A program made the translations under genes and the position numbers. A stretch of 64,000 bases of DNA from an uncultured Myxococcales bacterium (lineage in GTDB: Bacteria; Myxococcota_A; UBA9042; DTJE01): NCBI GenBank assembly GCA_903936705.1, contig CAIZWN010000051.1, positions 124,001-188,000 on the forward strand, written 5' to 3'. Positions 8,791-24,283 of the stretch are shown here, in pieces (position 1 is the first letter of the stretch; each line of letters begins with the position of its first letter). A model generated the notes under the pieces. The model was not told the origin of the DNA. It saw only the letters and a program-made list of their open reading frames with translations, and did not search any database.

Positions 8791-10365
8791 GTGACGGAAA
8801 ACGGCACAACCATGGGAACCAGTGGCGGACGGCTTGCGGTCATCGGCCTGGACCGCTTGGCGATCCTGCTGGTGTTCCTGGTCCAAGTGTCGGTGTTCCC
8901 TTACTTTCCGGCTCTGAACTCGGCCAATGAACTGTCCCGCCTGTACACCGCATGGGCAATGGTGGACGGCGATCTGGAGATCGGTCCATCGATTGCACGC
9001 TTCGGGGACGTCAACGACAAGTCGAAGGTTGCAGACTCGTTCTTTTCGGACAAGCCACCTGGTACGGCGTTTCTTGCTGTTCCAGGAATCGCGCTGCGGC
9101 AGGCGCTGGGAGGCGACAGGGATGCGGCCGCCGACCTGCGGATTGCACGACTGCTGGCAAGCATTCTGCCGACGCTTTTCCTGCTGATGATGCTGCGGAT
9201 CGAGATGTCAGAACGCGGAATTTCCGCGCCGACAAGGGCCCTTGCAATTGCCACTTACGGTCTTGGCACGCTGGGGTTCACCTACGGGGTGCTGTTTTAC
9301 GGACACCAACTTGTGGCCGTGCTGGTGTACGGAACCTGGTTCGCCCTGCGCCGGCAGACGATCGGACCGCAAAGCGCCGCCATCGCCGGATTCCTGGCTG
9401 GACTGTGTGTCGCAACCGAATACCAGTCGGCGGTCTACCTTCTGCCTCTGGCAGCAGTATTCCTGGTACGGGCTCGTCCCATTGGGCCGGCCCTTGTGGC
9501 CGGTCTGGCGGGAGCCGCGACACCGCTTGCCGCATTGGCAGCATTCCACGCCTCGGCCTTCGGGGCGCCATGGAAGACCGGATACTCGTTCGTGGCCAAC
9601 CCGTTCTTTGCCAAAGTACATGCGCAAGGATTCATGGGAGTTCTTTCGCCACGCCTGGTTCCGTTTGCCGGCAGCCTGTTTTCTGCGTCCAAGGGCCTTC
9701 TTGCGTGGTCGCCCTTCCTGGCATTGGGATTGGCCGGAATGGTGTCGCACATACGCACGTCGTCGACGCGCCTGGACAGATGGATCAGGGTTTTCCAGGT
9801 AGGCTTGCCAGTCCTGTTCGTGTCGTCGATGGTCTACTGGGACGGCGGATGGACGGTAAGCCAGCGCCACCTGACGCCCATGGTGCCGTTCCTTGTAGCG
9901 CCCGCAGCCCTGCTGATCCAGCGCTCAAGTATTGCCGCCATCGTGGCACCGGGGCTGGCCGCGGCATCGGTGATGATGACTGGCCTGGCGACGGTTGTCT
10001 TCCCTCACCTTCCCGAGAACTGGTCCAACCCCTTCCACGATCTGGTGATCCCCCTGGCCGCGGGCGGCTGCTGGGTGCGGACTTCCCTTGGAATCGAACT
10101 TCCGTCGGTGGCGTTCCTGTCTGCTGCGGCAGGCGCGTTTCTTGTGCTGGTGACGGCCTCGATAGCCTGGGGGCCGCTGGGACGCATGCGAACAAAAATG
10201 ATCGCAGTGGTCCTGATGGCCATGATCCCACTGGCGTGGTTCGATGGGACATCCCGAATCGCGCGCCGAGCACCGGCCGAGGCCGCAGCGGAACGCGTCT
10301 TCTTTGTCGGACAATGCAAGGCGGCTGGCCGCTGGGATGCCGGGGTCACTCAATCACGTCAATGA
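8791..10365 (+). CDS. polytopic membrane protein, GT-C/ArnT-PMT-like glycosyltransferase candidate
   Basis: A 524-residue protein with about eleven hydrophobic segments. The first large loop contains NELSRLYTAWAMVDGD and FFSDKPPGTAFLAVP, resembling the acidic first loop and KPP motif of ArnT/PMT-type GT-C enzymes that move sugars from polyprenyl-phosphate carriers. Later segments have the FYGHQLVAVLVYG and YWDGGWTVSQRHLTPMVPF features seen in large-membrane-protein relatives. The specific donor and acceptor are unknown. Start is GTG 8791 or ATG 8812. A TAGAAT at 8779-8784 would place transcription start almost on the GTG, so the message may be leaderless or begin at 8812. The 3' end overlaps the convergent thymidine phosphorylase by 20 bases. 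Confidence 0.65.
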   Translation: MTENGTTMGTSGGRLAVIGLDRLAILLVFLVQVSVFPYFPALNSANELSRLYTAWAMVDGDLEIGPSIARFGDVNDKSKVADSFFSDKPPGTAFLAVPGIALRQALGGDRDAAADLRIARLLASILPTLFLLMMLRIEMSERGISAPTRALAIATYGLGTLGFTYGVLFYGHQLVAVLVYGTWFALRRQTIGPQSAAIAGFLAGLCVATEYQSAVYLLPLAAVFLVRARPIGPALVAGLAGAATPLAALAAFHASAFGAPWKTGYSFVANPFFAKVHAQGFMGVLSPRLVPFAGSLFSASKGLLAWSPFLALGLAGMVSHIRTSSTRLDRWIRVFQVGLPVLFVSSMVYWDGGWTVSQRHLTPMVPFLVAPAALLIQRSSIAAIVAPGLAAASVMMTGLATVVFPHLPENWSNPFHDLVIPLAAGGCWVRTSLGIELPSVAFLSAAAGAFLVLVTASIAWGPLGRMRTKMIAVVLMAMIPLAWFDGTSRIARRAPAEAAAERVFFVGQCKAAGRWDAGVTQSRQ

Positions 10366-11644
10366 ACGTCTGACCGACTTCGATTACCTGGTCACCTATG
10401 GAATAGGCCGAGTGCACCATGTACTCGGCCTCGGAAAGCCCCCTTGAATCGTTGAACATCAATGTTACGAGCGGCTGGCCACAGACAACCGGATCGCCCA
10501 GCCGCACCAGTACACGAAGGCCCACCGCGGGGTCTATCCCGTCCTCCTTGCGCCTTCTGCCACCGCCCATTGCCACCGCAGCCAGCCCCAGCAGTTCGCA
10601 GTTGATTGCCTGCACCACGCCGCCGCGACCGGCCCGCACATCGACCTGATTCCGGGCACGCGGCAACAAGTCCGTGTTATCGACGACGGCCGGGTCGCCC
10701 CCCTGGAACTCAACCATGCGCCTGAACGTCTCCAGCCCGCGCCCATCGGCGATTGCCGCCCGGATCAACGCCTCGCCTTCCGTCTGAACGCTTGAGACTC
10801 CCCCCAGAACCAGCATCCGCCCGCCCAAAGTCACAACAAGTTCCACCGTGTCAGCAGGTCCTGCCCCCCGCAGCACCTCGATGGATTCCTCGATCTCCAG
10901 AGCATTGCCGACCGCCCATCCGATCGGCTGGTTCATGTCGGTCAGATAGGCGACTGTCCTGACGCCCGACCTGGTTCCCAGGCCAACCATCGTCCGAGCC
11001 AGCAGCGTGGCCTGCTCGCGGGTCTTCATGAACGCCCCCGAGCCGACCTTCACGTCCAGCACCAGGCCCGAGATCCCCTCGGCCAGTTTCTTGCTGAGGA
11101 TTGATGCCGAAATCAGTGGAATCGATTCCACCGTGCCGGTCACATCCCGCAGTGCGTACAGACGCTTGTCGGCAGGGACAATCGACTCGGTCTGGCCAAC
11201 CATGCAGGCACCTATTGTCCGAACCCCCTCAAGAAAGCGGGCCGGCGACAGGTCCGTCCTGAAACCTGGAATGGACTCCAGCTTGTCCAGAGTCCCCCCG
11301 GTATGGCCAAGCCCGCGACCCGAGATCATCGGGACCCGTACGCCGCATGACGACACCAGGGGTGCCAGCGGAATCGAAATCTTGTCTCCAACGCCCCCGG
11401 TGGAATGCTTGTCCACCTTGGCACCGGACAGATGCGACATGTCGAAAACGTCTCCCGAGTGCAGCATCGCATCGGTCCAGACAACAAGTTCGTTGTCATC
11501 CAGACCGCGGAAAAACACCGCCATCAGCAACGCTGAAGCCTGGTAATCGGGGATCGAACCGTCTGTGACACCCGCGATAACCTTCCTGATTGCCTCAGGT
11601 TCGAGGGTGCCTCCGTCACGCTTGTGCCGGATCACGTCCGCCAT
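10346..11644 (-). CDS. deoA: thymidine/pyrimidine-nucleoside phosphorylase
   Basis: A 432-residue protein that cleaves thymidine (or uridine) with phosphate to base plus (deoxy)ribose 1-phosphate for salvage. Key motifs are DKHSTGGVGDKIS in the phosphate-binding region and MISGRGLGHTGGTLDKLES, the class II nucleoside phosphorylase signature. A C-terminal beta domain (GDPVVCGQPL) is typical of the family. The ATG at 11644 is preferred over one at 11650 because a GGGGG ribosome-binding site lies at a better distance. It is the third gene after hisS and the MXAN_5187-like gene. Thymidine versus broad pyrimidine specificity cannot be separated by eye. Confidence 0.93.
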   Translation of the reverse strand: MADVIRHKRDGGTLEPEAIRKVIAGVTDGSIPDYQASALLMAVFFRGLDDNELVVWTDAMLHSGDVFDMSHLSGAKVDKHSTGGVGDKISIPLAPLVSSCGVRVPMISGRGLGHTGGTLDKLESIPGFRTDLSPARFLEGVRTIGACMVGQTESIVPADKRLYALRDVTGTVESIPLISASILSKKLAEGISGLVLDVKVGSGAFMKTREQATLLARTMVGLGTRSGVRTVAYLTDMNQPIGWAVGNALEIEESIEVLRGAGPADTVELVVTLGGRMLVLGGVSSVQTEGEALIRAAIADGRGLETFRRMVEFQGGDPAVVDNTDLLPRARNQVDVRAGRGGVVQAINCELLGLAAVAMGGGRRRKEDGIDPAVGLRVLVRLGDPVVCGQPLVTLMFNDSRGLSEAEYMVHSAYSIGDQVIEVGQTFIDVIE

Positions 11645-11690
11645 ACGCATCGCATGACCCCCGTCAGTAGTTGTTACGGCATGGACCGGA

Positions 11691-12413
11691 TCAGGAGCCG
11701 GCAGGATCGACAAGCGGCCGTGCCATCAGGATGACCCTGCCTTCCTTCACAATCACCGAGAACGACACGCTCGAAACACCCAGCTTCTCGGCCTGCACCA
11801 GACGCTGCTTTTCAAGGCTGGCCCGGAACGCCGGCTCGGTAATGCCCTCGGTGGAAAGTCCCAGCGAAGAGCGGGCGGTGATGTAGTCGTCGTAAAGGCG
11901 ATGCACATACTGGTCAACGGATGAAGGTTGGTTCGGCGCAGACACGGCCTTGGCCGACGTTACGACGGGCGACGCAGTTGCCCCGGCCGACGACGACGCC
12001 ATGGCCGCTGCCCTCCTGGCCACCTTGCGGGCATGCCCTCGGGCCACGGCCGATGCCGGCAATCCAGCGTCCTCGGCAGCACGATCTGCCGGATTGGCGC
12101 TGGCGTACCCGGCATCCCTCCGCATCGATTCGCGCGTGGTCCGCCCCTCCTCAAGATCGCGCATGACACGATCCCACTGGACCGCCAGGGTCCGATAGCG
12201 CTGGACCAGGGCCAGGAACCGGAATTTGTGGACGGCCCGATGTGCATCGTTCAACGACGTCTGACGAATAAACTTTTCCATCTGGTCCCGTTCGAACAAC
12301 GGCGGCAGCTTCTCGAGGGCCAGGAAGAACCCCTGATAACGGATTCGCAACTTCTCGATCCGCGTGGAGAAGTCGGCCAATTCCGCATCCAGTTCCTTGT
12401 CGGTCCCGGCCAC
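11691..12413 (-). CDS. MXAN_5187-like hypothetical protein
   Basis: A 240-residue protein starting at GTG 12413, which has GAAGGGG seven bases before it; the gap to the hisS stop is only four bases. The N-terminal half is charged and helical (LDAELADFSTRIEKLRIRYQG). A low-complexity Ala/Ser linker follows, then a conserved-looking C-terminal region (VDQYVHRLYDDYITAR to VIVKEGRVILMARPL). This arrangement resembles the MXAN_5187 C-terminal domain family of myxobacteria. There is no signal peptide or membrane segment. Function is unknown; cotranscription with hisS and deoA gives no clear hint. Confidence 0.65.
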   Translation of the reverse strand: MAGTDKELDAELADFSTRIEKLRIRYQGFFLALEKLPPLFERDQMEKFIRQTSLNDAHRAVHKFRFLALVQRYRTLAVQWDRVMRDLEEGRTTRESMRRDAGYASANPADRAAEDAGLPASAVARGHARKVARRAAAMASSSAGATASPVVTSAKAVSAPNQPSSVDQYVHRLYDDYITARSSLGLSTEGITEPAFRASLEKQRLVQAEKLGVSSVSFSVIVKEGRVILMARPLVDPAGS

Positions 12414-12417
12414 AGAT

Positions 12418-13731
12418 TCACCCCTTCGAGATTGCACTGATCAGGCTGGCAGCCAGATCTGCAAAGGCCACCTGGGTCTGCTGACCCGATTCGAGATCCT
12501 TGACCGTAACCCGACCTTCAGCGACCTCGGCATCACCCAGAAGCAACGCGAACCGCGCCTTGCGACGAGCCGCGTACTCGAACTGCTTCTTCAGGCGTGC
12601 CGACGGCTCGGGGACCGACTCGGCCCGCAATCCGGCCCGCCTCAAATCCGATACCAGCTTCATTCCGGCTGCAAATGCAGCATCACCCAGGATGCATACG
12701 ACCGCTTGCGGCCCGGTAGCTCCAGTCGGGGCTGTGCCAAGTTCCACAAGGGCGGCAAACAGGCGGTCCACGCCGATGCTGATCCCGACACAAGGAATCG
12801 CAGGGACTCCATAGGTTTCAAGCAGAGTGTCATAGCGCCCGCCACTCATCACCGAACCGACCGACGGCAGGTCCAGCAGGGTCGTCTCGTAGACAGTACC
12901 CGTGTAGTAGTCCAGCCCGCGTGCGATGCGCAGATCAAGGCTGACGCGCCGACCCAGGCCCATGGCATCAAGGGCGCCAAACACCGTCCGCAGATGGGCC
13001 ACCCCGTCCGGGCATAGCTGGTCCGTGGCATTACTGGTCAGGAACGAAGGATCGTCCGCATCACCCAGCAACTTCAGCAGCACGCCTGCACGCTCGTGGC
13101 CCACCGGCTCAAGCGAGGCCAGTATGTCTCGCACTGCATCGATACCGATCTTCTCGATCTTGTCGATCGCCCTTAAAACCTCGGCCTGAACCTTCCCGTC
13201 CTGGACGCCGGCAGCTGCCAGCAGGGCATTCAGGACCCCGCGATGCCCGATACGCACGACAAAACGGTCCAGTCCCAGCCCCTCCAGGGCCAGAACACCT
13301 GCTGCAATGCAATCGGCATCCGCAAGAGGCGATGCCGACCCCACGATGTCCGCATCGTACTGCATGAACTCGCGAAAACGCCCGTGCGCGGGCTTCTCGG
13401 CGCGCCACACGGTCCCGGTCTGATAGCGCCGAAACGGCCTGGGTAAATCACGATATTGCGCCACCACGCGGGCCAATGGCACCGTCAGGTCATAGCGCAG
13501 CGCCACGTCGCGACCACCGTTGTCCTGGAACCTGTACAGCAGTTTTTCGCCCTCGTCACCGTACTTGCCCAGAAGGATGTCCGCATACTCGATGGCAGGC
13601 GTTGAAAGCGGGGCAAAGCCGCAAGATTCGAACGCCACCGTGATCGCATCCAGCATCTTCTGACGGCCTGCCTGCTCGGCTGGCAGGAAATCACGGAACC
13701 CCTTCAACAACCTCGGTTCGACCGCAACCAC
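12418..13731 (-). CDS. hisS: histidyl-tRNA synthetase
   Basis: A 437-residue class II aminoacyl-tRNA synthetase that charges tRNA-His. Motif 2 is visible as YQTGTVWRAEKPAHGRFREF. The HisRS-specific motifs follow: RGLDYYTGTVYE (HisA) and SVGSVMSGGRYDTLL. GVSIGVDRL-like GISIGVDRLFA is motif 3. The C-terminal anticodon-binding domain runs from about residue 340. The GTG at 13731 was chosen because GGAGG lies seven bases before it and the protein then begins VVAVEPRLLKGFRDFLP, the expected N-terminus. A TACAAT (13766-13771 on the minus strand) may be its -10 element. It is divergent from the HEAT lipoprotein gene. Confidence 0.96.
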   Translation of the reverse strand: MVAVEPRLLKGFRDFLPAEQAGRQKMLDAITVAFESCGFAPLSTPAIEYADILLGKYGDEGEKLLYRFQDNGGRDVALRYDLTVPLARVVAQYRDLPRPFRRYQTGTVWRAEKPAHGRFREFMQYDADIVGSASPLADADCIAAGVLALEGLGLDRFVVRIGHRGVLNALLAAAGVQDGKVQAEVLRAIDKIEKIGIDAVRDILASLEPVGHERAGVLLKLLGDADDPSFLTSNATDQLCPDGVAHLRTVFGALDAMGLGRRVSLDLRIARGLDYYTGTVYETTLLDLPSVGSVMSGGRYDTLLETYGVPAIPCVGISIGVDRLFAALVELGTAPTGATGPQAVVCILGDAAFAAGMKLVSDLRRAGLRAESVPEPSARLKKQFEYAARRKARFALLLGDAEVAEGRVTVKDLESGQQTQVAFADLAASLISAISKG

Positions 13732-13832
13732 CAGGAAGCCTCCATGTCCAGAAGATGCGGCTGGGATTGTACCACGATGCCGCGGCCGGCCGGCGCAGCC
13801 ATGCAAACGGCGCCCCAAACATGTCCCCGACG

Positions 13833-13861
13833 TTGCGATTCGCCCCCGGCAGGTGTAGAAC
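13833..13861 (+). promoter_or_regulatory. candidate promoter of the HEAT lipoprotein gene
   Basis: TTGCGA (13833-13838), 17 bases, TAGAAC (13856-13861). The -10 element ends only four bases before the first ATG (13866), which would make the transcript leaderless or nearly so. Confidence 0.45.
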
Positions 13862-13865
13862 CGCC

Positions 13866-14771
13866 ATGATGGAATTGCATCGGACAAACGCGCTGTTCCT
13901 GGTGCTGGCAGCCCTGGCGCTTGCGGCCTGCTCGCATGCCGCACCGCCCTCTTCCAGCCATGCCTTCGGGCCTGCACTTGCTGGCCTTAGAGTCGTCGTC
14001 GTGGGCAACGCAGAAGGGGGAAGCCCCGACGACTGCCCGGCTCTTGCCGGAGTCGGATTTGCGCTGCTTGGTGGACTGAACCTGGAGCCTGCTGCAAAGC
14101 CGGTCCTGTCGGTGGCAGTGGGATGCGAACCTGGCCTTGCTACAGCCGCCACTGCGTCTCATGGGTTGGATGAAACTTCGCCGACCAACGTATCAAGCAC
14201 CGTGACGCTGGACCTGGCCGCTGCCGGCCAACCGGACGAGTCGTACGAAGGAGCCGGCTTGGCCCAATGCGCTGCCTGCGAAGAGGGGCGCGGCCGAGGG
14301 GCCCTTGTAATGACGGTGGCCCACGCCGTCAGGGATGCGCTGGACCTTGCGTTGGCCCAGAATCGAGTCTCCAGTCTGGAGGATGGCGCTCTTGCCGCGC
14401 TGCTGGCAAACCCGGATCGCGAGGCCAGATCTGTCCTGCTGGCCGCGCTGGATGAGGCTGGCATCAGGCGCCTGCGAACGGCACTGGAACCTGCTGCCAG
14501 ACTGCTTGACGCCGCTGACGACGAAATTGCGCTGAGATCCGTCGGGGTTCTTTCCCGTCTGGAGGAATCTGCGTCCGTGAAGGCATTGGGCAAGGCAGCG
14601 CTGACCAGGCGTCCCGAGGTGCCATTCGCCGCCGTCAGGGCCATAGCCGACATCGACGGACCGGATGCTCGAAGAGCCCTGGAACTGGTCGCAGGACAGG
14701 CCCAGGATCCGGTTCTTGCCAGGGAAGCCAGTGAACTCCTTGACGAACTTGTCAAGGAAGGCCAGGACTGA
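13866..14771 (+). CDS. HEAT-repeat lipoprotein
   Basis: A 301-residue protein. The first ~22 residues form a signal peptide ending in the lipobox LAAC, so it is probably anchored to the outer or inner membrane. The middle (about 30-140) is a domain of unknown identity with VVVVGNAEGG and several cysteines. The C-terminal half consists of PBS-lyase/HEAT-type helical repeats (for example RPEVPFAAVRAIADIDGPD). No ribosome-binding site is seen before either ATG (13866 or 13869), which agrees with the promoter abutting the start. It is followed after 25 bases by the murC-like gene and may be cotranscribed with it. Confidence 0.68.
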   Translation: MMELHRTNALFLVLAALALAACSHAAPPSSSHAFGPALAGLRVVVVGNAEGGSPDDCPALAGVGFALLGGLNLEPAAKPVLSVAVGCEPGLATAATASHGLDETSPTNVSSTVTLDLAAAGQPDESYEGAGLAQCAACEEGRGRGALVMTVAHAVRDALDLALAQNRVSSLEDGALAALLANPDREARSVLLAALDEAGIRRLRTALEPAARLLDAADDEIALRSVGVLSRLEESASVKALGKAALTRRPEVPFAAVRAIADIDGPDARRALELVAGQAQDPVLAREASELLDELVKEGQD

Positions 14772-14796
14772 ATGAACAAAGGGGGTTCAACCAATC

Positions 14797-16173
14797 GTGC
14801 ATGAAACTCCAGTCGATCTGGCAATTCCGCAGCACATACATTTCCTTGGCATCGGTGGCGTCGGCGTCAGCGCGTGCGCCAGACTGCTGTTGCAACGCGG
14901 CTTTCCGGTATCGGGGTCCGACGTCAGGGAATCCTCGATAACGCTGGCGCTGCGGGACGAAGGCGCAACGATAACGATTGGCCACAACGCCGCGAACCTT
15001 GCCGGCGCCGACCTGGTAGTCGTCTCGACGGCAATCCCGCAGACAAATCCCGAGTGGATTGCCGCCAGCAACGCTGGCCTGCCTGTGGTCCATCGGTCCG
15101 TGGTCCTGGACGCCCTGATGCGGGGGCGCCGATCGATCGGCGTCACCGGCACCAACGGCAAGGGATCGGTTTCCTCGTTCGTTGCCTACCTGCTGGACCG
15201 GGCTGGCATGCGCCCGTCCTTCGCAATTGGTGCGATGCTGCTGGACTTTTGCACGAACGCCCGCGAGGCCGACGGCAGGCACCTGGTCTGCGAACTGGAC
15301 GAGTCGGACGGATCGTTCGCCAACACCCATCCCGACCGTCTTGTCATCAACAACCTGGAAGCCGATCACCTGAACTACTACAAGGATCTCGAGGGTCTTC
15401 TGCGGCACTTCACCGACTACCTTGGCAGCGATGCGGCACCGGCCCTTTTGCACGTGTGCGGTGACGACGCCAATAGTCTCGACGTACTGGGCCGCGCGGG
15501 AAGAACAGCCGTCACATTCGGTCGCAGCGCCGGGTGCGACTACCGTGTCACGGCGCTGGCGCTGGAGGGATTCGGTTCCCGGTTCTCGGTGACCGGCCCC
15601 CGGGGCGACCTGGGCGAGTTCTCATTGAGGCTGCCGGGCGAGCACAACGTCCTGAACGCTGTCGCGGCGCTTTCGGTCGCCCTCGAGGAGGGGGCAGACC
15701 TTCAGACGTGCCGCTTGGCAATGCCCTTGTTCCAGGGGCTCGAGAACCGCTTCACTCTGGTGCAGGCGGGACGGCACCTGGTGGTCAAGGACTACATCTC
15801 GCACCCGTCAGGCATCCGCAGCGTCCTGGCCGGCGCGCGGGCATTTGCCAAGGGCCGGGTGGTCGCGGTCTTCAAGCCTTACCGATTCACGATGATCCAC
15901 TACCTGGGTGACGAATATCGCGCTGCGTTCGTCGGCGCCGACCTGACTCTGGTGACCGAACTATACACGGCCGGGGAGGTCCCGATTGCTGGCGTGGACG
16001 CCCAGTGGCTGGTTGAAAAGATCCGGTCCGCCGGATCGGAGGTCAGCTTTGTGCCGGTTATGGATGACCTCCTGACCGAGTTGAGGAAGCGCCTTCAGGA
16101 CGACGACACGGTCATTTTCTTCGGCGGCGACGACCTGTTCGCCCTGGCCGACCGGTTCGTGGCCAGCCTGTGA
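14797..16173 (+). CDS. murC: MurC-like Mur ligase (UDP-MurNAc-L-alanine ligase family, divergent)
   Basis: A 458-residue Mur ligase. The N-terminal Rossmann motif FLGIGGVGVSACARLLL and SGSD are characteristic of MurC/Mpl. The central domain has ELDESDGSF and INNLEADHLNYY; the C-terminal domain has HNVLNAVAAL, HPSGIRSVL and FKPYRF, all in the MurC order. The P-loop (about residues 118-124) reads GTNGKGSV where MurC normally has GTHGKTTT; GTNGKGS is the form typical of folylpolyglutamate synthase. MurC adds L-alanine to UDP-N-acetylmuramate. Start is GTG with GGGGG upstream. It precedes murD by 25 bases. It could instead be a paralogue with another substrate (Mpl-like or cyanophycin-type ligase). 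Confidence 0.72.
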   Translation: MHETPVDLAIPQHIHFLGIGGVGVSACARLLLQRGFPVSGSDVRESSITLALRDEGATITIGHNAANLAGADLVVVSTAIPQTNPEWIAASNAGLPVVHRSVVLDALMRGRRSIGVTGTNGKGSVSSFVAYLLDRAGMRPSFAIGAMLLDFCTNAREADGRHLVCELDESDGSFANTHPDRLVINNLEADHLNYYKDLEGLLRHFTDYLGSDAAPALLHVCGDDANSLDVLGRAGRTAVTFGRSAGCDYRVTALALEGFGSRFSVTGPRGDLGEFSLRLPGEHNVLNAVAALSVALEEGADLQTCRLAMPLFQGLENRFTLVQAGRHLVVKDYISHPSGIRSVLAGARAFAKGRVVAVFKPYRFTMIHYLGDEYRAAFVGADLTLVTELYTAGEVPIAGVDAQWLVEKIRSAGSEVSFVPVMDDLLTELRKRLQDDDTVIFFGGDDLFALADRFVASL

Positions 16174-16198
16174 CCCGCTTCCAGCGCGGGGTGGAGGA

Positions 16199-17560
16199 AT
16201 GATGCGGATCGAGGGCGCGGCCTTCAGCGTCGTGGGAATGGGCAAGAGCGGCCTTGCCGCGGCGAACCTTCTGGCACGCATGGGCGGGGACGTTCTGCTG
16301 TCCGACGGGCGGGACAATGCGGAACTCAGGCTCCAGGCGACCGAACGTGCCGACCCCAAAGTACATTTGGCCTTCGGCGGCGAGACCATCCGCCGAGGTG
16401 ACGTTGCCATCCTGTCCCCCGGAATTCCTCCGTCAGCGACCGCCTTTCGCGATGCCTACAGACTGGCCTCCGAGGTGATCGGCGAGGTCGAACTGTTCTT
16501 CCGGTTGTTCCCTGGGCGCATCCTCGCCGTCACGGGCACCGACGGCAAAAGCACCACAACCACCCTGGCAGCTCACCTGCTGAACGAGGCCGGTATTCCC
16601 GCACACCCGGCAGGAAACCTGGGAAACCCCCTTTGCGACCTGATCGGAAGTATCGCCGACAGCGACGTTGTCGTGGCCGAAGTGTCCTGCTATCAGTTGC
16701 TGACGACCGACCGTTTCCGGCCTTGCGTGGCCCTGGTCACCAACCTGGCCGAAGACCACCTGGAACACCACGGTTCCTTCGCGGCCTATGTCGCGGCAAA
16801 GGCCAGGGTCCTTCTGCGCCAGTCGCACGGGGACGTCTTCGTCCGCAATCTGGATGACGGGCTGCTGGCAAACTGGCTGAGGCCCGGCGATCCGTGGACA
16901 AGTGACAACGGCCAGCACGTGCAGGACATCTCACGCTCGGGTCCGGTGTCGGACGGCGCATTCCTGCTGGACGGTGGGCTGTTCCTGGCAGCAGGCGGCC
17001 ACGAACAGCGGGTGGCCAGCCGCGCGGCCTTTGCGCTGCCCGGGGAACACAACACGGAAAACGTCCTGCTGGCCCTGGCTGCGACCGCGGCCCTTGGCGC
17101 CACTCCCGAGGGGCTGGGCCGCGGACTGGGTACCTACCGCGGTCTGCCCCATCGCATCGAAAAAATTCGCGTTCTGGACGGGGTCACCTTCTACAACGAT
17201 TCGAAGGCAACCAACCCTCATGCGGCAATTACCGGGCTTCGAGCCTTCGATCGCGGGGTCGTCCTGATGGCCGGCGGCTTCGAGAAAGGTCTGGCGCTGA
17301 CGGACCTTGCCGTCGAGATCGAACAGCGCTGCAAGGCTGTCGTTCTGACCGGGGATTGCGCCCCACGCATGAAGCGGGAGTTTCCCAGGGCAGTACCCTG
17401 TGAAGTCGTGGACGACCTGGAATCCGCGGTGATCCGGGCCTGGGAGCTGGCACGACCCGATGGAATCGTTCTTTTCTCGCCTGCCGCTTCGTCATTCGAC
17501 AGGTATTCGTCGTTCGAGCAACGTGGAGACTGTTTCCGCAACCTGGTCAACGGTCTTTAG
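16199..17560 (+). CDS. murD: UDP-N-acetylmuramoylalanine--D-glutamate ligase
   Basis: A 453-residue Mur ligase that adds D-glutamate to UDP-MurNAc-L-alanine in the cytoplasmic stage of peptidoglycan synthesis. Motifs in order are FSVVGMGKSGLAAANLL, PGIPPS, P-loop VTGTDGKSTTTT, NLAEDHLEHHGS, GEHNTENVL, FYNDSKATNPHA (carrying the MurD-type DSKATN) and FSPAASSFD with the terminal RG..F. Two adjacent ATGs (16199, 16202) follow GGAGGA; the second has better spacing. It sits directly after the murC-like gene. No other dcw-cluster gene (mraY, murF, murG, ftsW, murB) is present in the window, which is unusual. Confidence 0.9.
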   Translation: MMRIEGAAFSVVGMGKSGLAAANLLARMGGDVLLSDGRDNAELRLQATERADPKVHLAFGGETIRRGDVAILSPGIPPSATAFRDAYRLASEVIGEVELFFRLFPGRILAVTGTDGKSTTTTLAAHLLNEAGIPAHPAGNLGNPLCDLIGSIADSDVVVAEVSCYQLLTTDRFRPCVALVTNLAEDHLEHHGSFAAYVAAKARVLLRQSHGDVFVRNLDDGLLANWLRPGDPWTSDNGQHVQDISRSGPVSDGAFLLDGGLFLAAGGHEQRVASRAAFALPGEHNTENVLLALAATAALGATPEGLGRGLGTYRGLPHRIEKIRVLDGVTFYNDSKATNPHAAITGLRAFDRGVVLMAGGFEKGLALTDLAVEIEQRCKAVVLTGDCAPRMKREFPRAVPCEVVDDLESAVIRAWELARPDGIVLFSPAASSFDRYSSFEQRGDCFRNLVNGL

Positions 17561-17593: not shown

Positions 17594-19264
17594 TCAGAGG
17601 CAGTCGATAGCAACGGTGTGGTAACCCGAAGCCTGGTCGTTGAAGTCCCCCACGACAATGAAGTAGGGCATCCCGGCAACCACTGACAGCGTGGTCGAAG
17701 GATCCTCAGCGACCGAACTCCCGATGCAACCGGCAGGGTTGCAGGCACCGGACAAGACATAGAGGTTGAACTCATCCGGGGGCCAAGGTTCGTCCTCATG
17801 CACGACAAAAAAGCGCACCAACCCCGTCGCTGTTGCCGTAAATGAATAGACATGGCTGTACAGGTAGTTGAGGCTGTCGCCGCAGGCGCTCCCGGTAACA
17901 CCGCGGCTGCCGTTGTATTGACCGAACAGTCGAGTACCGCAAACCATTGTATCCGCGACACGCCAACTGCACTCGTCAGTCGGACACGGAGCAACGCCCG
18001 CGCAATCGGGGTCCTGGCAGTCAGTCAGGCCGTCGAAATCCTCGTCCACGACGTCGCCGCAGTTGGACTCCGAAGCAGGGCAGTCACCGCAGTCCTGCGG
18101 GCATGTCAGGCAGTTCTCGCCGGCGGTCCAGCAGGTGCCATCACCGCAATCTACGCACTGAATGGTACCGGAAGCACAGGCACCCAAGGCGCAACGGTCG
18201 CCGACGGTACAGGCATTGCCGTCATCGCAAGCCAGCGCATTGGAAAGATGAATGCACCGGTTTCCGGAACAAGAGTCGTCGGTACACACATTGTCGTCAC
18301 CGCACTGGGCAGCAGTACGACATTCGCATGTATCGGGACCTGCGACGCATGTCGTCCCTACGCAGGTATCAGGCGTGGTGCATGAGTCCCCGTCGCTGCA
18401 AGCGCCGATTACGGGCGAATAGGTGCACTTGTGGGCGGCATCGCATTTGTCCAGCGTGCATTGGTTCCCGTCGCCGCAATCCGCGTCCAGCCTGCAGTCG
18501 CAAACCATGTTGCCCAGGCAGGTACCCAGCGCACAGGTGTCACCCGACGTGCATGAATCGGAATCGTCGCAAGACGCCGTATTGAACGGGTAAACGCACG
18601 TACCGGCGTTGCAACGTTCGTCGGTGCATGGATTGGTGTCGGAACAATCCCCGTCAACCTTGCATGCACAGGTCCAGGGACCCGGCTGGCACGTCCCGCC
18701 CTGGCACTTGTCCCCGGTAGTGCATGATTCGCCGTCCTGACAGGTCGTCCCTTCCAGTCTTCCCGAATCCAGGCGGCAGTGCCGCGTCGCAAGATCGCAC
18801 GCATTCGAGCGGCATGTCAGGCTGAACGAAGGATTGCAGTGGCTGTCGTTCAGGCACCAGCAGGCAGTGTCGTCCGGCGCGCAGGCTCCAACGGCAACAG
18901 GTATGTCCTCGCCTTGATCGGCGACCGGACCCGGATCCGAAGGAATATCGTTAGAAACCCCGGGATCCTCCGAAATTACATCCGGCGGGCCAATGTCATT
19001 TGCGTCTGCCGAGGTAACATCAACGTCCGCTCTTTCGACATCATCCGCCAGGGTATCGACGTGGCTGGAATCACGAGGGCTGTAATCATCAGGCACGTCC
19101 TGGCCGCCAACCTCGTGCACGTCCGGACGCACCACGACGACCGGCAGGTCAGACGCCGCAGACCCATCTGGCACCACAGCACTGCAGCCGGCAGCCACGG
19201 CCACCATCACTGCCAGCACCGCGCCACACCGGCGCCACGTTGCCGAAACGATTCTGTCAGCCAA
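17594..19264 (-). CDS. surface lipoprotein with seven CTDC-type cysteine repeats and a PPC-like C-terminal domain
   Basis: A 556-residue protein. A signal peptide ends with the lipobox AAGC. Residues ~35-120 are an Asp/Val-rich linker (for example DVHEVGGQDVPDD). About seven repeats of the form CxDxxxCTxxxxC follow (such as CGDDNVCTDDSC), matching the Dictyostelium CTDC repeat family. After a CPQDCGDC region and a DEDFDGLTDCQDPDC segment, the last ~120 residues (YSFTATATGLVRFFVV onward) resemble a PPC/bacterial pre-peptidase beta domain. The start is TTG with GGGGGG just upstream. Likely an adhesive or structural surface protein; function is unproven. It is a shorter cousin of the 1813-residue protein at 47.7-53.1 kb. 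Confidence 0.75.
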   Translation of the reverse strand: MADRIVSATWRRCGAVLAVMVAVAAGCSAVVPDGSAASDLPVVVVRPDVHEVGGQDVPDDYSPRDSSHVDTLADDVERADVDVTSADANDIGPPDVISEDPGVSNDIPSDPGPVADQGEDIPVAVGACAPDDTACWCLNDSHCNPSFSLTCRSNACDLATRHCRLDSGRLEGTTCQDGESCTTGDKCQGGTCQPGPWTCACKVDGDCSDTNPCTDERCNAGTCVYPFNTASCDDSDSCTSGDTCALGTCLGNMVCDCRLDADCGDGNQCTLDKCDAAHKCTYSPVIGACSDGDSCTTPDTCVGTTCVAGPDTCECRTAAQCGDDNVCTDDSCSGNRCIHLSNALACDDGNACTVGDRCALGACASGTIQCVDCGDGTCWTAGENCLTCPQDCGDCPASESNCGDVVDEDFDGLTDCQDPDCAGVAPCPTDECSWRVADTMVCGTRLFGQYNGSRGVTGSACGDSLNYLYSHVYSFTATATGLVRFFVVHEDEPWPPDEFNLYVLSGACNPAGCIGSSVAEDPSTTLSVVAGMPYFIVVGDFNDQASGYHTVAIDCL

Positions 19265-19552: not shown

Positions 19553-21847
19553 TCATTGTCGACAAAGCGCAGCAACGGCCTGGCCCAAGGCAATGCCGCC
19601 ATCGTTTGCAGGAACAAGGGACTGGGAAAGCACGTCAAGACCAGCGGCCAGGAGACGCCGGGAGATCCCTGCCAGCAGATGACGATTCTGGAAGGCACCG
19701 CCGGACAGGGCGATGGTTGAAAGGCCCGTTGCGACCGCCACATCGATCGCCATTGACGCGTACGCACACACGACTGTCGCCTGGAAGCGGGCACAAACGA
19801 CGGAAGGTGGAGTGCCGGTCAGGAGATCGGCCGCAAGAGCCAGGACCATTGGACGAGGATCAAGGATCGAAAGTCCGGTTGGGGCCCTATCGACTTCCCA
19901 CGGATAGGGATCGGGCTGGCCAGGAACCTCGATTGCGGCATGCTCAACCGCCATCGCGGCCTGGCCGTCAAAGGATGCCAGCGGACACAGGCCGCACAAG
20001 GCGGACACTGCGTCAAAAAGGCGGCCAAGACCCGACGAGCGCGGGAGATCACGTCCGTTACGGCACAGCCCCAGCACCGCATCGATCCTTGGGGAATCAA
20101 CAGGCCAGCGGGGGCTGAACGCTGCAACCAGATTGTCCGCGTCAGCCTGGTGCAGGATCGACACAGCAAGACGCCATGGCTCGAGGGTCGCCATGTCCCC
20201 ACCCGGAAGAGGAAGAGGCCTTAGCGTTGCATGGCGACCGAAGTTTGCGCCATCGACCATCAGGATTTCACCCCCCCAGATCGTGCCGTCGGTGCCGTAG
20301 CCCGTGCCGTCCAGGGCCAGCCCGATAACCGGGCCGGTGCGACGATGCTCGGCAAGGCACGACAGAACGTGGGCGTGATGGTGCTGGACAGGGACCAGGG
20401 GCGCATCCGGGCACAGCAGGTCCCGCAGGAGGGTGGCAAGACGTGTGGACATGTAATCGGGGTGCATGTCGTGCGCGACCGCAGCAGGTCGAACGTTAAG
20501 CAGGCCGCACAGGTGCATGGCGGCCTCCTCGAACCAGACGGCGGTGGCAGCATTTGCCAGATCGCCGACATGAGGCCCCATGAAGGCTAGGCCCCCCCTG
20601 GTGACGCAGAAGGCGTTCTTGAGGTCCGCGCCGACCGCAAGAATTGGCGGGCCATCAACCGGCATCGAAATCGGCAAAGGCACGTACCCCCGGCTGCGAC
20701 GAATCATGCGAGTGCGGCCAGCTAACACCGCCGCCACCGAATCGTCGCATCGGGTCACGATATCGCGGTCGTGGACCAGGAAGCCGTCCGCGATTCCAGA
20801 CAAACGCCGCACGGCCTCGTCGTTGCCCGACGCTATCGGCTCGTCGTGAGGATTCGCCGAGGTCATGACCAGGGCGGTGAAGGCGCCATCGGAAAGGATC
20901 CTGTGGTGCAAAGGCGCATACGGGAGCATCGCCCCGATGAAGGCATTGTTGGGCGCGATGCCTTCTGCCAGATCGAACAAGTCTGCCTTGCGCAGCAGCA
21001 CAATCGGGCGCGCTGGCGTTGCCAGAAGATCCGCCTCATCCATTGCAACACATGCAAACGCCCGGATCGCGTCCACGTCGGGCGACATCACCGCAAACGG
21101 TTTGCCGTCACGCTGCTTCAGCCGACGCATGCGATCCACTGCCGTCGCATCGCGGGCATTGCACACCAGGTGGAAGCCGCCCAGGCCCTTCACCGCCAAG
21201 ATAGCCCCCGACCGCAAGCGCCGTACCGCCTCGGCAAGCGGGTCCGGGGCCTCGACTAGCGCACCAAAGCCGTCCAGCAACGACAAGCCGGGTCCGCAGG
21301 CCGGACAGGCGTTCGGCTCGGCGTGAAATCTGCGTGACATCGGGTCCGTGTACTCGGCAAGGCACGACGGGCACTGGGAGAAAGTTGCCATTGTCGTCAT
21401 GGCACGGTCGTAGGGCATGCCCCTGATCAAGGTATAGCGAGGGCCGCAATCGGTACAGTTGATGAACGGATAGCCGTAGCGGCGATCGCCCGAATCGCAC
21501 ATCTCGGCAAGACAGGACGGACAGGTCGCCACGTCGGCCGGAACCAAAGTAGTCGAGGTTGAACCACGCGAAGCCGTAATGGCAAAACCGCGGATGCCAG
21601 CGGGCGGCAGCCAGGAGGCATCCACGCTTTCTACGCGAGCCATCGGGGGAGCAGATGTCCAAAGCGCCCGCTGCAACAGGTCGATCTGCGCCCGCGGGCC
21701 CTCGGCCTCGATTGCCACACCCTCCGGCTCGTTGCGTACCGATCCAGCCAGGTCCAGCGCAACCGCCGTCCTGTAGACGAACGGCCTGAATCCGACGCCC
21801 TGCACAATTCCCCGGACAAGGAAGACGCAGCGAGTCGGGGCACTCAT
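19553..21847 (-). CDS. hypF: carbamoyltransferase HypF
   Basis: A 764-residue protein of normal length. It makes the thiocyanate precursor of the CN ligands of [NiFe]-hydrogenase from carbamoyl phosphate and passes it to HypE. Domains in order: acylphosphatase (VRGIVQGVGFRPFVYR), two zinc-finger-like CxxC pairs with spacing typical of HypF (CPSCLAEMC, CTDCGPRY, CPSCLAEY, CPACGP), a YrdC-like domain (KGLGGFHLVCNA), and a Kae1-like carbamoyltransferase domain (VQHHHAH). The ATG at 21847 is chosen over one at 21862 because GTGAGG precedes it. It is the last gene of the hypABCDEF operon, 18 bases after hypE. Confidence 0.96.
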   Translation of the reverse strand: MSAPTRCVFLVRGIVQGVGFRPFVYRTAVALDLAGSVRNEPEGVAIEAEGPRAQIDLLQRALWTSAPPMARVESVDASWLPPAGIRGFAITASRGSTSTTLVPADVATCPSCLAEMCDSGDRRYGYPFINCTDCGPRYTLIRGMPYDRAMTTMATFSQCPSCLAEYTDPMSRRFHAEPNACPACGPGLSLLDGFGALVEAPDPLAEAVRRLRSGAILAVKGLGGFHLVCNARDATAVDRMRRLKQRDGKPFAVMSPDVDAIRAFACVAMDEADLLATPARPIVLLRKADLFDLAEGIAPNNAFIGAMLPYAPLHHRILSDGAFTALVMTSANPHDEPIASGNDEAVRRLSGIADGFLVHDRDIVTRCDDSVAAVLAGRTRMIRRSRGYVPLPISMPVDGPPILAVGADLKNAFCVTRGGLAFMGPHVGDLANAATAVWFEEAAMHLCGLLNVRPAAVAHDMHPDYMSTRLATLLRDLLCPDAPLVPVQHHHAHVLSCLAEHRRTGPVIGLALDGTGYGTDGTIWGGEILMVDGANFGRHATLRPLPLPGGDMATLEPWRLAVSILHQADADNLVAAFSPRWPVDSPRIDAVLGLCRNGRDLPRSSGLGRLFDAVSALCGLCPLASFDGQAAMAVEHAAIEVPGQPDPYPWEVDRAPTGLSILDPRPMVLALAADLLTGTPPSVVCARFQATVVCAYASMAIDVAVATGLSTIALSGGAFQNRHLLAGISRRLLAAGLDVLSQSLVPANDGGIALGQAVAALCRQ

Positions 21848-21865
21848 CGATTGCCTCACCATGGT

Positions 21866-22885
21866 TCAGCAGATTCGAGGCAGCGGCTCGGATGCCGGCG
21901 TGTCGTACAGCCGCCGACCACCATACAACGTGACCATCACGACCGGGCCCGACTCGCGCGCCACGATGCGCCCAACGATGCGCGCGCCACTTCCCTCGGG
22001 ACACCCTGTCATGGCAGCCACAGCGGCTGAACCCTGCCCTGCCGGCACGATGGCGACCATGCGCCCCTCGCAGGCCAGGAACAGCGGGTCCAGCCCCAGA
22101 AGGTCGCAGACGCCACGAACCTCGTCACGCACAGGCAAGTCCGCCTCGCGCAGTTCGACCGTCACACCGGCCTCCTTGGCCAGTTCGGAAAGGACCGTCG
22201 CCAGGCCCCCCCGCGTCGGGTCACGCAGGAAACGCGGCATGATTCCCCTCGAGTACAAGGCATCGACCAGCGGCAGCACCGGCCCGCAGTCGCTTTTCAG
22301 CAAGCCGGGATCCATTCCGTTGCGAATGGCGGCGATGACTGCGCCATGGTCTCCAATCGGCCCGCTGACCACGACCTCGTCACCGGAAAGAAGCGAGGCC
22401 GCGCCGGTTGGAGGCTGGTCGCGCAACCGCCCCACCCCGGCCGTCACGATGTACAAGCCGTCGCCATGGCCGCGCTGCACGACCTTGGTATCGCCGGTCA
22501 CAACCTCGACGCCGCAATGGCGGGCGGCATTGCCCATCGATTCCGCGTGCCGCCGCAGTTCGTCTATTGGCAGCCCCTCCTCCAGGATGAACGAGGCCGA
22601 CAAGGCAAGCGGCTGCGCACCTCCCACCGCCAGATCATTCACGGTGCCGTAGACCGCCAGGCACCCGATGTCACCTCCGGGAAAAACCCGGGGACTGACG
22701 ACAAATCCGTCGGTCGTCATCGCCAGGCGGCCCTCGACCCGCGGCAGCCATGCGGCGTCTCCCATCACGTCCAGCCTGGGGTTCGACAGATGGGGCAGAA
22801 AGATGTCCCTGACCAGGTCCGAGGTCAGGCGACCGCCACTGCCATGCCCCAAAGTGATGATATCGTGGGCGGAATTGCCTGCCAC
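21866..22885 (-). CDS. hypE: hydrogenase maturation protein HypE
   Basis: A 339-residue AIR-synthase-like protein. It dehydrates the HypF-derived carbamoyl group on its C-terminal cysteine to give thiocyanate. The N-terminal ITLGHGSGGRL and the C-terminal PRIC with the terminal modifiable cysteine are both intact, so the protein is likely functional. Also visible are the MTTDGFVVSPRVFPGGDIG and VVTGDTKVV motifs of the ATP-binding fold. The start is GTG at 22885, with GGAGGA eight bases upstream; the longer frame would run into hypD. It sits 47 bases after hypD. Confidence 0.96.
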   Translation of the reverse strand: MAGNSAHDIITLGHGSGGRLTSDLVRDIFLPHLSNPRLDVMGDAAWLPRVEGRLAMTTDGFVVSPRVFPGGDIGCLAVYGTVNDLAVGGAQPLALSASFILEEGLPIDELRRHAESMGNAARHCGVEVVTGDTKVVQRGHGDGLYIVTAGVGRLRDQPPTGAASLLSGDEVVVSGPIGDHGAVIAAIRNGMDPGLLKSDCGPVLPLVDALYSRGIMPRFLRDPTRGGLATVLSELAKEAGVTVELREADLPVRDEVRGVCDLLGLDPLFLACEGRMVAIVPAGQGSAAVAAMTGCPEGSGARIVGRIVARESGPVVMVTLYGGRRLYDTPASEPLPRIC

Positions 22886-22932
22886 AAACCATTCCTCCGG
22901 CGGTCGATGCGTAACCTGGCATCGTAGCGGCT

Positions 22933-24021
22933 TCAGCCCCTTCGATGCCGGTACCTTGCCGCACAGGTTCCTTCGAAAGCCACCATGCACGGGCCGATCG
23001 GAAGATCCGGGGTGCACGCGCCGGCAAACAGCGGGCACGCTTCGGGTTCCAGCCGGCCCAGCAGAACGTCCCCGCAGCGACAGCCGGGCGACGTGTCCGC
23101 CACTTCGGGATCGGGTTCAAGGCCGAAACGCGCCGCAGCATCACGTCCGCCAAATGACCGACGCAGGCCCAGGCCCGAGGCCGGAATCATACCGATCCCG
23201 CGCCAGGTCGAATCGCGCGCCTCGAACACCGCATCGATCGCCTGGATGGCCGCAGGATTTCCCAGGTCTCGCACCACCCGGGTGTAGTCGTTGCCGACGC
23301 GTGGCCGCCCATCGACAACCTGTTCGACCAGGTCCTTCAACGCCAGCAGCAGGTCAACCGGCTCGAACCCCCCCACGGCCATGGGAATCGGCCGTCGCAG
23401 GCACAGTTCCCGGTACGCCCCAAGCCCGGTTATCGCGATGACATGGCCCGGCAGCAGGAATCCGTGGGGCGCCACGCCCGGAAGCGCAAGCAGGGCATCA
23501 AGCGCCGGCGGCACCAGACGGTGACTGCACAGAACCGAAAAATTCCCGGGCGGATCGGCACGCAGGGCGGCCGCCGTAGTGCAGGCGGTAGTCTCGAAAC
23601 CTGCGGCAAAGAACACGACTTCCCGGTCAGGCATCGCCCGCGCCAGCGCCACAGCATCGGCCGCGCCGTAGACTACCCGCACGTCGCCACCCCGCGCCCG
23701 TGCATCAGACAAACTGGTGCGCGCAGCCGGCACACGAACGACATCCCCGAAAGTTGCCAGCACCACTCGCAGCATCGACGCCGCCCGTATTGCCAGGTCA
23801 AGATCGGAGGCCGGACAGACGCACACGGGGCAGCCTGGTCCAGCGACCAGGGTCAACCATTCGGGCAGCAACTCACGCAGGCCGTACTGGCACAAAACGT
23901 TCTCGTGGGTACCGCAAACGTGCATCAGACGGACGGGTCGCCCAGGGTCCAGCCTCGCAATCGAGTCGGCCAGCGTGCGGACCCGTGCGATGTCGCGAAA
24001 TCCGGCCAATTTATCGGACAC
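22933..24021 (-). CDS. hypD: hydrogenase maturation Fe-S protein HypD
   Basis: A 362-residue scaffold on which the Fe(CN)2CO unit is built together with HypC. The family motifs are present: LMHVCGTHENVL, AGPGCPVCVCP, and the C-terminal cysteine-rich block GCRCGDVLLG, ACPLFAGACTP, GPCMVAFEGTCAARY that holds the [4Fe-4S] cluster. GTG 24021 is chosen because GGAGG lies just before it and the protein then begins at the conserved N-terminus (SDKLAGFRD). It lies 31 bases after hypC in the operon. Confidence 0.96.
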   Translation of the reverse strand: MSDKLAGFRDIARVRTLADSIARLDPGRPVRLMHVCGTHENVLCQYGLRELLPEWLTLVAGPGCPVCVCPASDLDLAIRAASMLRVVLATFGDVVRVPAARTSLSDARARGGDVRVVYGAADAVALARAMPDREVVFFAAGFETTACTTAAALRADPPGNFSVLCSHRLVPPALDALLALPGVAPHGFLLPGHVIAITGLGAYRELCLRRPIPMAVGGFEPVDLLLALKDLVEQVVDGRPRVGNDYTRVVRDLGNPAAIQAIDAVFEARDSTWRGIGMIPASGLGLRRSFGGRDAAARFGLEPDPEVADTSPGCRCGDVLLGRLEPEACPLFAGACTPDLPIGPCMVAFEGTCAARYRHRRG

Positions 24022-24052
24022 GGCACCTCCGATCGGCGGGCCACGACGCCAG

Positions 24053-24283
24053 CTAGGCCCTGACAGGCTCATCTGCCATGGCCACGGCCACCATGGCCAT
24101 CGACTCGGCCGCTTCGGCCTCGTCAAGAATCTCGATCGCGTAACCGGCATGAACAATCAGCCAGTCACCAGCCTTCGCGTCCGGCACCAGGTCCAGCCGC
24201 ACGCCCCGACCAACACCCTGGACCTCGGCCTTCCCTTCGGCGCCATCAATCGAGACAAGTCGCATGGGCACGGCCAGGCACAC
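24053..24283 (-). CDS. hypC: hydrogenase assembly chaperone HypC
   Basis: A 76-residue protein beginning MCLAVPMRLV, where Cys2 (exposed after Met removal) binds iron in complex with HypD. The segment WLIVHAGYAIEILDEAEA is the conserved chaperone C-terminal helix region. It shuttles the Fe(CN)2CO group to the large subunit of a [NiFe]-hydrogenase. It lies three bases downstream of hypB and 31 upstream of hypD. HupF-type paralogues are normally longer and occur with structural genes, so HypC is preferred. Confidence 0.95.
   Translation of the reverse strand: MCLAVPMRLVSIDGAEGKAEVQGVGRGVRLDLVPDAKAGDWLIVHAGYAIEILDEAEAAESMAMVAVAMADEPVRA

Follow-up and report, generated by a model that had tools for sequence, protein, structure and literature searches.

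We identified, in a 64,000-nucleotide stretch of DNA from an uncultured Myxococcales bacterium (contig CAIZWN010000051.1, positions 124,001 to 188,000; hereafter "the window"), a gene that we call murC'. Its product is probably the primary UDP-N-acetylmuramic acid (UDP-MurNAc) ligase of its genome, placed in a separate MurC subfamily with changed handling of the incoming amino acid. We give this joint explanation a probability of roughly 0.7, the claim of a primary MurC being held much more firmly than that of changed handling. The gene is the sole MurC found in its genome, it belongs to a clade apart from canonical MurC, active site residues are switched throughout that clade, the amidase YfiH is missing wherever MurC' was assigned by motif, and relics of MurC' occur in genomes that have YfiH and a canonical MurC. 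From these computed observations we infer catalysis, substrate and a causal link to YfiH.

The only MurC of its genome

The MurC' protein scored 377.5 bits against the NCBIfam equivalog for MurC (TIGR01082, cut-off 335.1), and the product of the murD gene that follows after an intergenic gap of 25 bp scored 361.5 bits against the NCBIfam MurD family (TIGR01087, cut-off 211.95). The closest sequences of solved structure are MurC enzymes. An AlphaFold model of MurC' (predicted local distance difference test score, pLDDT, 95.2; predicted template modelling score, pTM, 0.94) has the three-domain MurC fold, with the MurC structures 1p31 and 1p3d as best PDB matches (template modelling, TM, scores of 0.92-0.95). 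The first-pass annotation of the window had correctly located both reading frames, the P-loop GTNGKGSV, the C-terminal IFFGGDDLF and the direct coupling to murD on the same strand. It was also right that mraY, murF, murG and ftsW are not nearby; the division and cell wall (dcw) cluster sits on a separate contig, C83.

That annotation had offered a choice between a highly diverged primary MurC and a specialised second ligase pair, and had proposed looking for another murC and murD in the genome, including its dcw cluster. Neither was found in the source genome, which comprises 4.85 Mb in 84 contigs and is 96.08% complete. A search for the Mur ligase middle domain gave seven places: MurE and MurF (C83), the window pair (C51), two cyanophycin-synthetase-like proteins (C49) and FolC (C35). 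MurC and MurD are thus each encoded once in the genome, by the genes of the window, and in a MurC profile search the window gene was the sole match over the cut-off. The dcw cluster on C83, its genes named by reading the sequence and by BLAST markers, holds rsmH, ftsI, murE, murF, mraY, ftsW, murG, ftsQ, ftsA and ftsZ, and murC and murD were not found in it. Because murE, murF, mraY and murG are present, the pathway needs a MurC. The window gene is the primary MurC and not part of a spare pair, barring a second copy in the missing 4% of the genome. The two cyanophycin-synthetase-like genes stand in tandem (G000:C49, locus L119, about 9944-15219).

Relatives of the same class agree with this assignment. 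A MurC-profile match was found in 52/52 of their genomes, over the cut-off in 41, and GT[NH]GKG[ST] occurs together with FKPYR in every one of the 30 best loci. Each relative genome has a second match, below the cut-off, that could have been a canonical MurC paralogue. This was ruled out, the second match being of the Mpl kind: GTHGKT[TS][TV] occurs in the 31 loci examined, the EGDEYD block in the four sequences printed, and 41 such rows were classed as Mpl by motif. In the source genome itself a profile search did not find Mpl, though nearly all relatives in the class carry one; the absence may reflect the missing 4% or a loss. Thus the diverged primary MurC of the first-pass annotation stands as to its being sole and lineage-wide, with the amendment that it represents a separate subfamily and not a drifted copy of the phylum's enzyme. 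The second pair is not supported, as far as a 96% complete genome can show.

Switched residues and a separate clade

We compared 53 canonical MurC sequences with 31 core MurC' sequences, leaving out L253, L256 and three basal MurC' sequences, and found about a dozen positions that are near-invariant in the canonical set and switched in the core set. Numbering is that of Haemophilus influenzae MurC (HiMurC). The residue after the P-loop lysine (Thr130) is Thr in 53/53 canonical sequences and Gly in 31/31 core MurC'. Equally complete are the changes of Arg to Asn before RF, of Asp to Lys before DY (Asp344), of the His of DYxH (His348) to Ser, of the Gln of FQPHR to Lys, and of the Arg three residues past FQPHR (Arg380) to Leu or Met. 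The His of FQPHR (His376; 52/53) is Tyr in 31/31, and Glu352 (52/53) is Gly in 27/31. In the GAG motif, Ala (53/53) is replaced by Gly (31/31) and the second Gly (53/53) by Asp (29/31).

Two of these motif changes, VKDYISHPSG for DDY[AG]HHPxE and FKPYRFTM for FQPHR[YF][TS]R, had been missed in the first-pass annotation and matter more than those it reported. The P-loop is neither chance nor a sequencing oddity, since the aligned homologues, 31 core and 3 basal, all have GKG[ST]. Its folylpolyglutamate-synthase-like letters are local (Asn in 8/31 and Ser in 4/31 core MurC'), and on the aligned sequences the true clade-wide signature is the Gly after the P-loop lysine (GKG).

In HiMurC, Thr130 together with Glu173 binds Mg1, and of the five presumed contacts to the incoming amino acid three are His348, His376 and Arg380; PaMpl His376, at the His348 position, is listed also as triphosphate-stabilising (PMC3060825). 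The window MurC' has neither the Mg1-ligand Thr nor any of these three contacts. It retains K122, E166, H191, Y333 and R363, the equivalents of HiMurC Lys129, Glu173, His198, Tyr346 and Arg377. As the UDP site, the P-loop Lys, the Mg1 Glu, the Mg2 His and the C-terminal Arg are all kept, activation through an acyl phosphate is the most likely chemistry. We would therefore expect the chemistry to stay and the binding of metal and amino acid to be rearranged. Part of what Arg380 does may have passed to Lys331; a substitute source of the Mg1 ligand in place of Thr130 was not found in MurC'.

In a tree of 96 rows rooted with Mpl, all 34 MurC' formed one clade (support 99, starred) that excludes the canonical enzymes of Bacillota, Actinomycetota, Acidobacteriota, Pseudomonadota and Myxococcota, with support for the canonical side at 88, unstarred. 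For topology tests 32 of the 96 rows were dropped for long branches and thinning. In the remaining set of 64, a single clade of MurC' and canonical Myxococcota MurC was rejected (difference in log likelihood, delta lnL, 57; p value of the approximately unbiased test, p-AU, 0.0005). By its own account, the first-pass annotation would have been mistaken in its suspicion if the genome had no other murC or murD and if phylogeny placed the gene with the lineage-wide MurC. The first half is what we found; as to the second, MurC' is itself lineage-wide but does not group with canonical MurC. Membership of canonical MurC thus fails on catalytic residues and phylogeny, and a MurC-like mode of working appears well supported. 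In an rpoB tree of 26 genomes, with reading frames picked by BLAST, the MurC'-bearing lineages need two changes. A single clade of these lineages was not rejected (p-AU 0.135), so that the simplest history is one ancient replacement that was then passed on by descent.

Gene order also differs between the two types. In most of the canonical Myxococcota loci fetched, murC is part of the dcw cluster and comes after murG or ftsW, whereas murD follows MurC' on the same strand within 200 bp in 39/47 loci. The 8 other MurC' loci comprise two of family f27, one with a 1.5-kb gap, one without a nearby murD and four that lie at the end of a contig or close to it. The MurDs paired with MurC' cluster together (support 95, starred), apart from dcw MurDs; one MurC' locus had the label "other".

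Compared with the canonical enzymes (TIGR01082; 1p3d from H. influenzae, 2f00 from E. coli), MurC' shares the three-domain fold, the UDP site, the P-loop Lys, the Mg1 Glu, the Mg2 His, the Tyr346 and Arg377 equivalents and, as proposed, the role of first Mur ligase. It differs in the Thr130, His348, His376, Arg380 and Asp344 replacements, in GGDD for GAGD, in its separate clade and in its place with murD outside the dcw cluster. Mpl (TIGR01081) is the nearest other family in the tree and has the same fold. The window MurC' scored 132.6 bits against it, with a cut-off of 388.7, and has DESD and no [GA]DEYD motif; Mpl, unlike MurC', keeps the GKTT and HHP motifs, and the two coexist in relatives' genomes.

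Distribution, YfiH and relic genes

We surveyed 282 Myxococcota genomes with the DNA patterns FKPYR[FY]T (MurC') and FQPHR[YF][TS]R (canonical). The former was found in 81 genomes and the latter in 143, with both together in none. The 58 genomes with neither pattern were settled in part by profile and motif. MurC'-type motifs were found in G120, in eight f40 genomes and in G149 (f41), the f40 and f41 proteins being a more divergent form with GTHGKGTT and [DN]YxSHPT; in 25 others the motifs are canonical, including variants with LQPHR or FQPHL. The final tally was 91 genomes with MurC', 168 with canonical MurC and 23 unsettled. An FKPYR pattern match in G153 (L194) was rejected, there being no MurC there. 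A very long-branched MurC-like protein, L253 (G197:C199), has GTSGKSTV and DDFAHNPAK, and its genome has YfiH.

The cultured predator Bradymonas sediminis carries MurC', and Persicimonas caeni, another cultured predator, very probably does. With two other phyla searched, the clade is so far confined to Myxococcota. A MurC' profile gave no score above 473 bits in 198 Thermodesulfobacteriota genomes (phylum assigned by centre genome) and none above 458 bits in 145 Omnitrophota genomes; in the sampled families other than f40 and f41, intact MurC' scores 638-716 bits, and the basal f40 and f41 forms score 409-505 bits, so a basal form in other phyla could be missed.

YfiH (PgeF) is described in PMC8844914 as an amidase acting on UDP-MurNAc-L-Ser, as well as on UDP-MurNAc-Gly, which MurC produces by mistake, and is termed there conserved in Gram-negative bacteria. 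At E <= 1e-10 it was found in 174/282 of the Myxococcota genomes. By DNA pattern it is present in 0/81 MurC' genomes and 139/143 canonical ones; with the motif-settled genomes included, the counts are 0/91 and 164/168. Completeness is 78-88% in the four canonical genomes that lack it, and the 23 unsettled genomes divide into 10 with and 13 without. The genome of B. sediminis FA350 (G057) is a single contig of 5,045,683 bases, the size given for the published genome in PMC7188933. It has a MurC' of 716 bits and no YfiH, an absence that is no assembly gap.

Family f18 (21 of the 282 genomes) contains both intact and decayed MurC'. In thirteen of its genomes MurC' is intact (681-716 bits), with YfiH in 0/13; in eight it is a relic, with YfiH in 7/8. 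Each relic has lost at least one essential motif, sometimes several: the P-loop Lys (to Ser or Arg), DESD, or the GIGG/GSD UDP site. Five of the eight relic genomes (G101, G109, G128, G169 and G207) carry a canonical MurC, all of a single type. It groups with a Neomarinimicrobiota sequence and not with Myxococcota (support 97, starred; two of the five are in the tree). In two further relic genomes, G204 and G219, which are 86-87% complete, canonical MurC was not found. MurC' thus loses its catalytic motifs in genomes where another MurC was found or is likely, an argument for the MurC step as its ordinary function. The relics (L248, L249, L262, L335, L336, L339, L341 and L343) are open frames of about 340-490 amino acids, some cut by contig ends. 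Wherever the flank of a relic could be read (seven cases), murD still adjoins it, and perhaps the relic is kept as a non-catalytic partner of MurD.

Proposed role and alternatives

We propose that canonical MurC gave way to MurC' among the ancestors of much of the Myxococcota, the usual form being a murC'-murD pair outside the dcw cluster. The enzyme most likely activates UDP-MurNAc as an acyl phosphate and adds one amino acid, after which MurD would extend the product. The surroundings of the gamma-phosphate/Mg1 site and of the amino acid to be added are rebuilt in it (T130G, H348S, H376Y, R380L/M and D344K in HiMurC numbering). The proposed consequence is a changed handling of amino acids, by which MurC' would either have stopped mis-charging UDP-MurNAc with Ser or Gly, or would use such a residue on purpose. 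YfiH would then be needless or harmful, which could account for its absence. Somewhat short of even odds, and so tentatively, we suggest that MurC' is a first-position ligase with an amino-acid rule of its own, either sharp discrimination or a non-alanine first residue. Under that rule, proofreading by the MurC-YfiH pair would have been given up for another solution in the Bradymonas-Persicimonas group and in other Myxococcota, and one sub-lineage would have reverted by way of a foreign canonical MurC and regained YfiH.

Several observations weigh against the joint explanation of a primary MurC with changed handling. The genome counts overstate the YfiH link because most of the genomes share one ancestry. 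When the outgroup and G227 were left out, independent contrasts on the rpoB tree numbered 2 on well-supported branches (3 on all), with a sign test p of 0.5; YfiH accompanies canonical MurC in both tested contrasts, and two cannot reach significance. Among 14 control genomes, MurC was over the cut-off in 10 and YfiH in 7. Some bacteria with canonical MurC therefore have no YfiH match, and loss of YfiH is no proof of altered specificity. YfiH is missing from G227, where MurC' is a relic and a canonical-like MurC of diverged sequence is present. G066 has an intact MurC' plus a canonical-like MurC (L344, G066:C151; FQPHLFSR, GAGD), also without YfiH, and is the one exception in the survey to the mutual exclusion of MurC' and canonical MurC. 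The deep placement of MurC' could stem from the pull of the long Mpl branch, and, the source genome being 96% complete, a canonical murC may conceivably be hidden in the remainder.

One alternative is that MurC' is an ordinary primary MurC, its active site changes neutral or compensated, which adds L-Ala at normal fidelity and lost YfiH on the same branch by coincidence. The score over the equivalog cut-off, the MurC fold, the retained Lys/Glu/His catalytic set and the few independent contrasts behind the YfiH link all agree with it. We nevertheless consider it unlikely, as the switched residues are fixed to specific others across the clade (31/31), which is not drift, and YfiH is present in seven of the eight f18 genomes with a relic.

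It is also rather improbable that MurC' installs L-Ser, Gly or some further residue in place of L-Ala, in which case YfiH would destroy the intended product. In favour, three of the five amino-acid contacts are replaced (roles from PMC3060825), YfiH hydrolyses UDP-MurNAc-L-Ser and -Gly (PMC8844914) and is missing from all 91 MurC' genomes, and the paired MurDs cluster apart. Higher fidelity, however, explains the absence of YfiH equally well. In Mycobacterium leprae, which has Gly at position 1, MurC specificity resembles that of M. tuberculosis according to PMC8844914, so that position 1 need not follow MurC. No peptidoglycan composition for these bacteria was found in the literature.

A specialised second ligase pair, for recycling, a spore or a surface polymer, would fit the location outside the dcw cluster and the odd motifs. 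We regard it as very improbable, given a 96% complete genome with no other MurC or MurD and class relatives that share the pattern of one MurC' plus Mpl, in which Mpl already covers recycling. Kinship with folylpolyglutamate synthase, suggested by the letters GTNGKGS, can practically be dismissed, since the folC profile (TIGR01499) matched residues 112-139 only (28 residues; 22.5 bits, cut-off 162.65), the best PDB folds are MurC and a separate FolC, sharing with MurC' only the Gly after the P-loop Lys, is encoded on C35; the resemblance noted in the first-pass annotation is a short convergent motif.

Table 1. The murC'-murD pair of the window and the motifs of MurC' (residue numbers of the window protein)
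Feature	Position	Strand	Basis	Description
murC' gene	14797..16173	+		GTG start, 458 aa; MurC-type ligase, deep separate MurC subfamily
murD	16199..17560	+		ATG start, 453 aa; directly downstream; ordinary MurD P-loop GTDGKST
P-loop GTNGKGSV, residues 118-125	15148..15171	+	alignments	Gly123 where H. influenzae MurC has the Mg1-ligand Thr130
DESD motif, residues 168-171	15298..15309	+	alignments	kept; Glu166 (= HiMurC Glu173, Mg1) kept too
KDYISHPSG, residues 331-339	15787..15813	+	alignments	Lys331/Ser335/Gly339 for HiMurC Asp344/His348/Glu352
FKPYRFTM, residues 359-366	15871..15894	+	alignments	Tyr362 for His376, Met366 for Arg380; Arg363 (= Arg377) kept
FFGGDDLF, residues 441-448	16117..16140	+	alignments	canonical form xxGAG[DNS]

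Convergent with murD (Table 1) is a gene for a Cys-rich repeat protein with a lipoprotein-like start (17594-19264, minus strand). Further downstream, a row of hypF, hypE and hypD-like genes, named by inspection of their sequences (19553-24156, minus strand), presumably points to an NiFe hydrogenase in the genome.

No description of the MurC' subfamily was found in the open-access literature on MurC in Myxococcota or in Bradymonas, on non-orthologous MurC, on Bradymonadales peptidoglycan or on PgeF in connection with MurC. The nearest parallel that we met is Frankia, a group that likewise has two types of MurC, MurC1 and MurC2, of which one takes the place of the other. Unlike MurC', these types coexist in some strains and no major structural difference between them is reported; the abstract describes neither remodelling of the active site nor a link to YfiH (PMC7231273).

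According to PMC8844914, MurC specificity alone did not explain the choice of the first residue. The strict exclusion between MurC' and YfiH offers a direct route to asking how bacteria choose the first residue of their peptidoglycan. MurC is an essential and drug-targeted enzyme, and its active site motifs are regarded as fixed. MurC' would be a natural MurC, serving a whole lineage, that works (or is the sole candidate to work) although it lacks both the Mg-binding Thr and three residues presumed to hold the amino acid. With MurC' present in cultured B. sediminis, and very probably in P. caeni, these proposals are testable at once.

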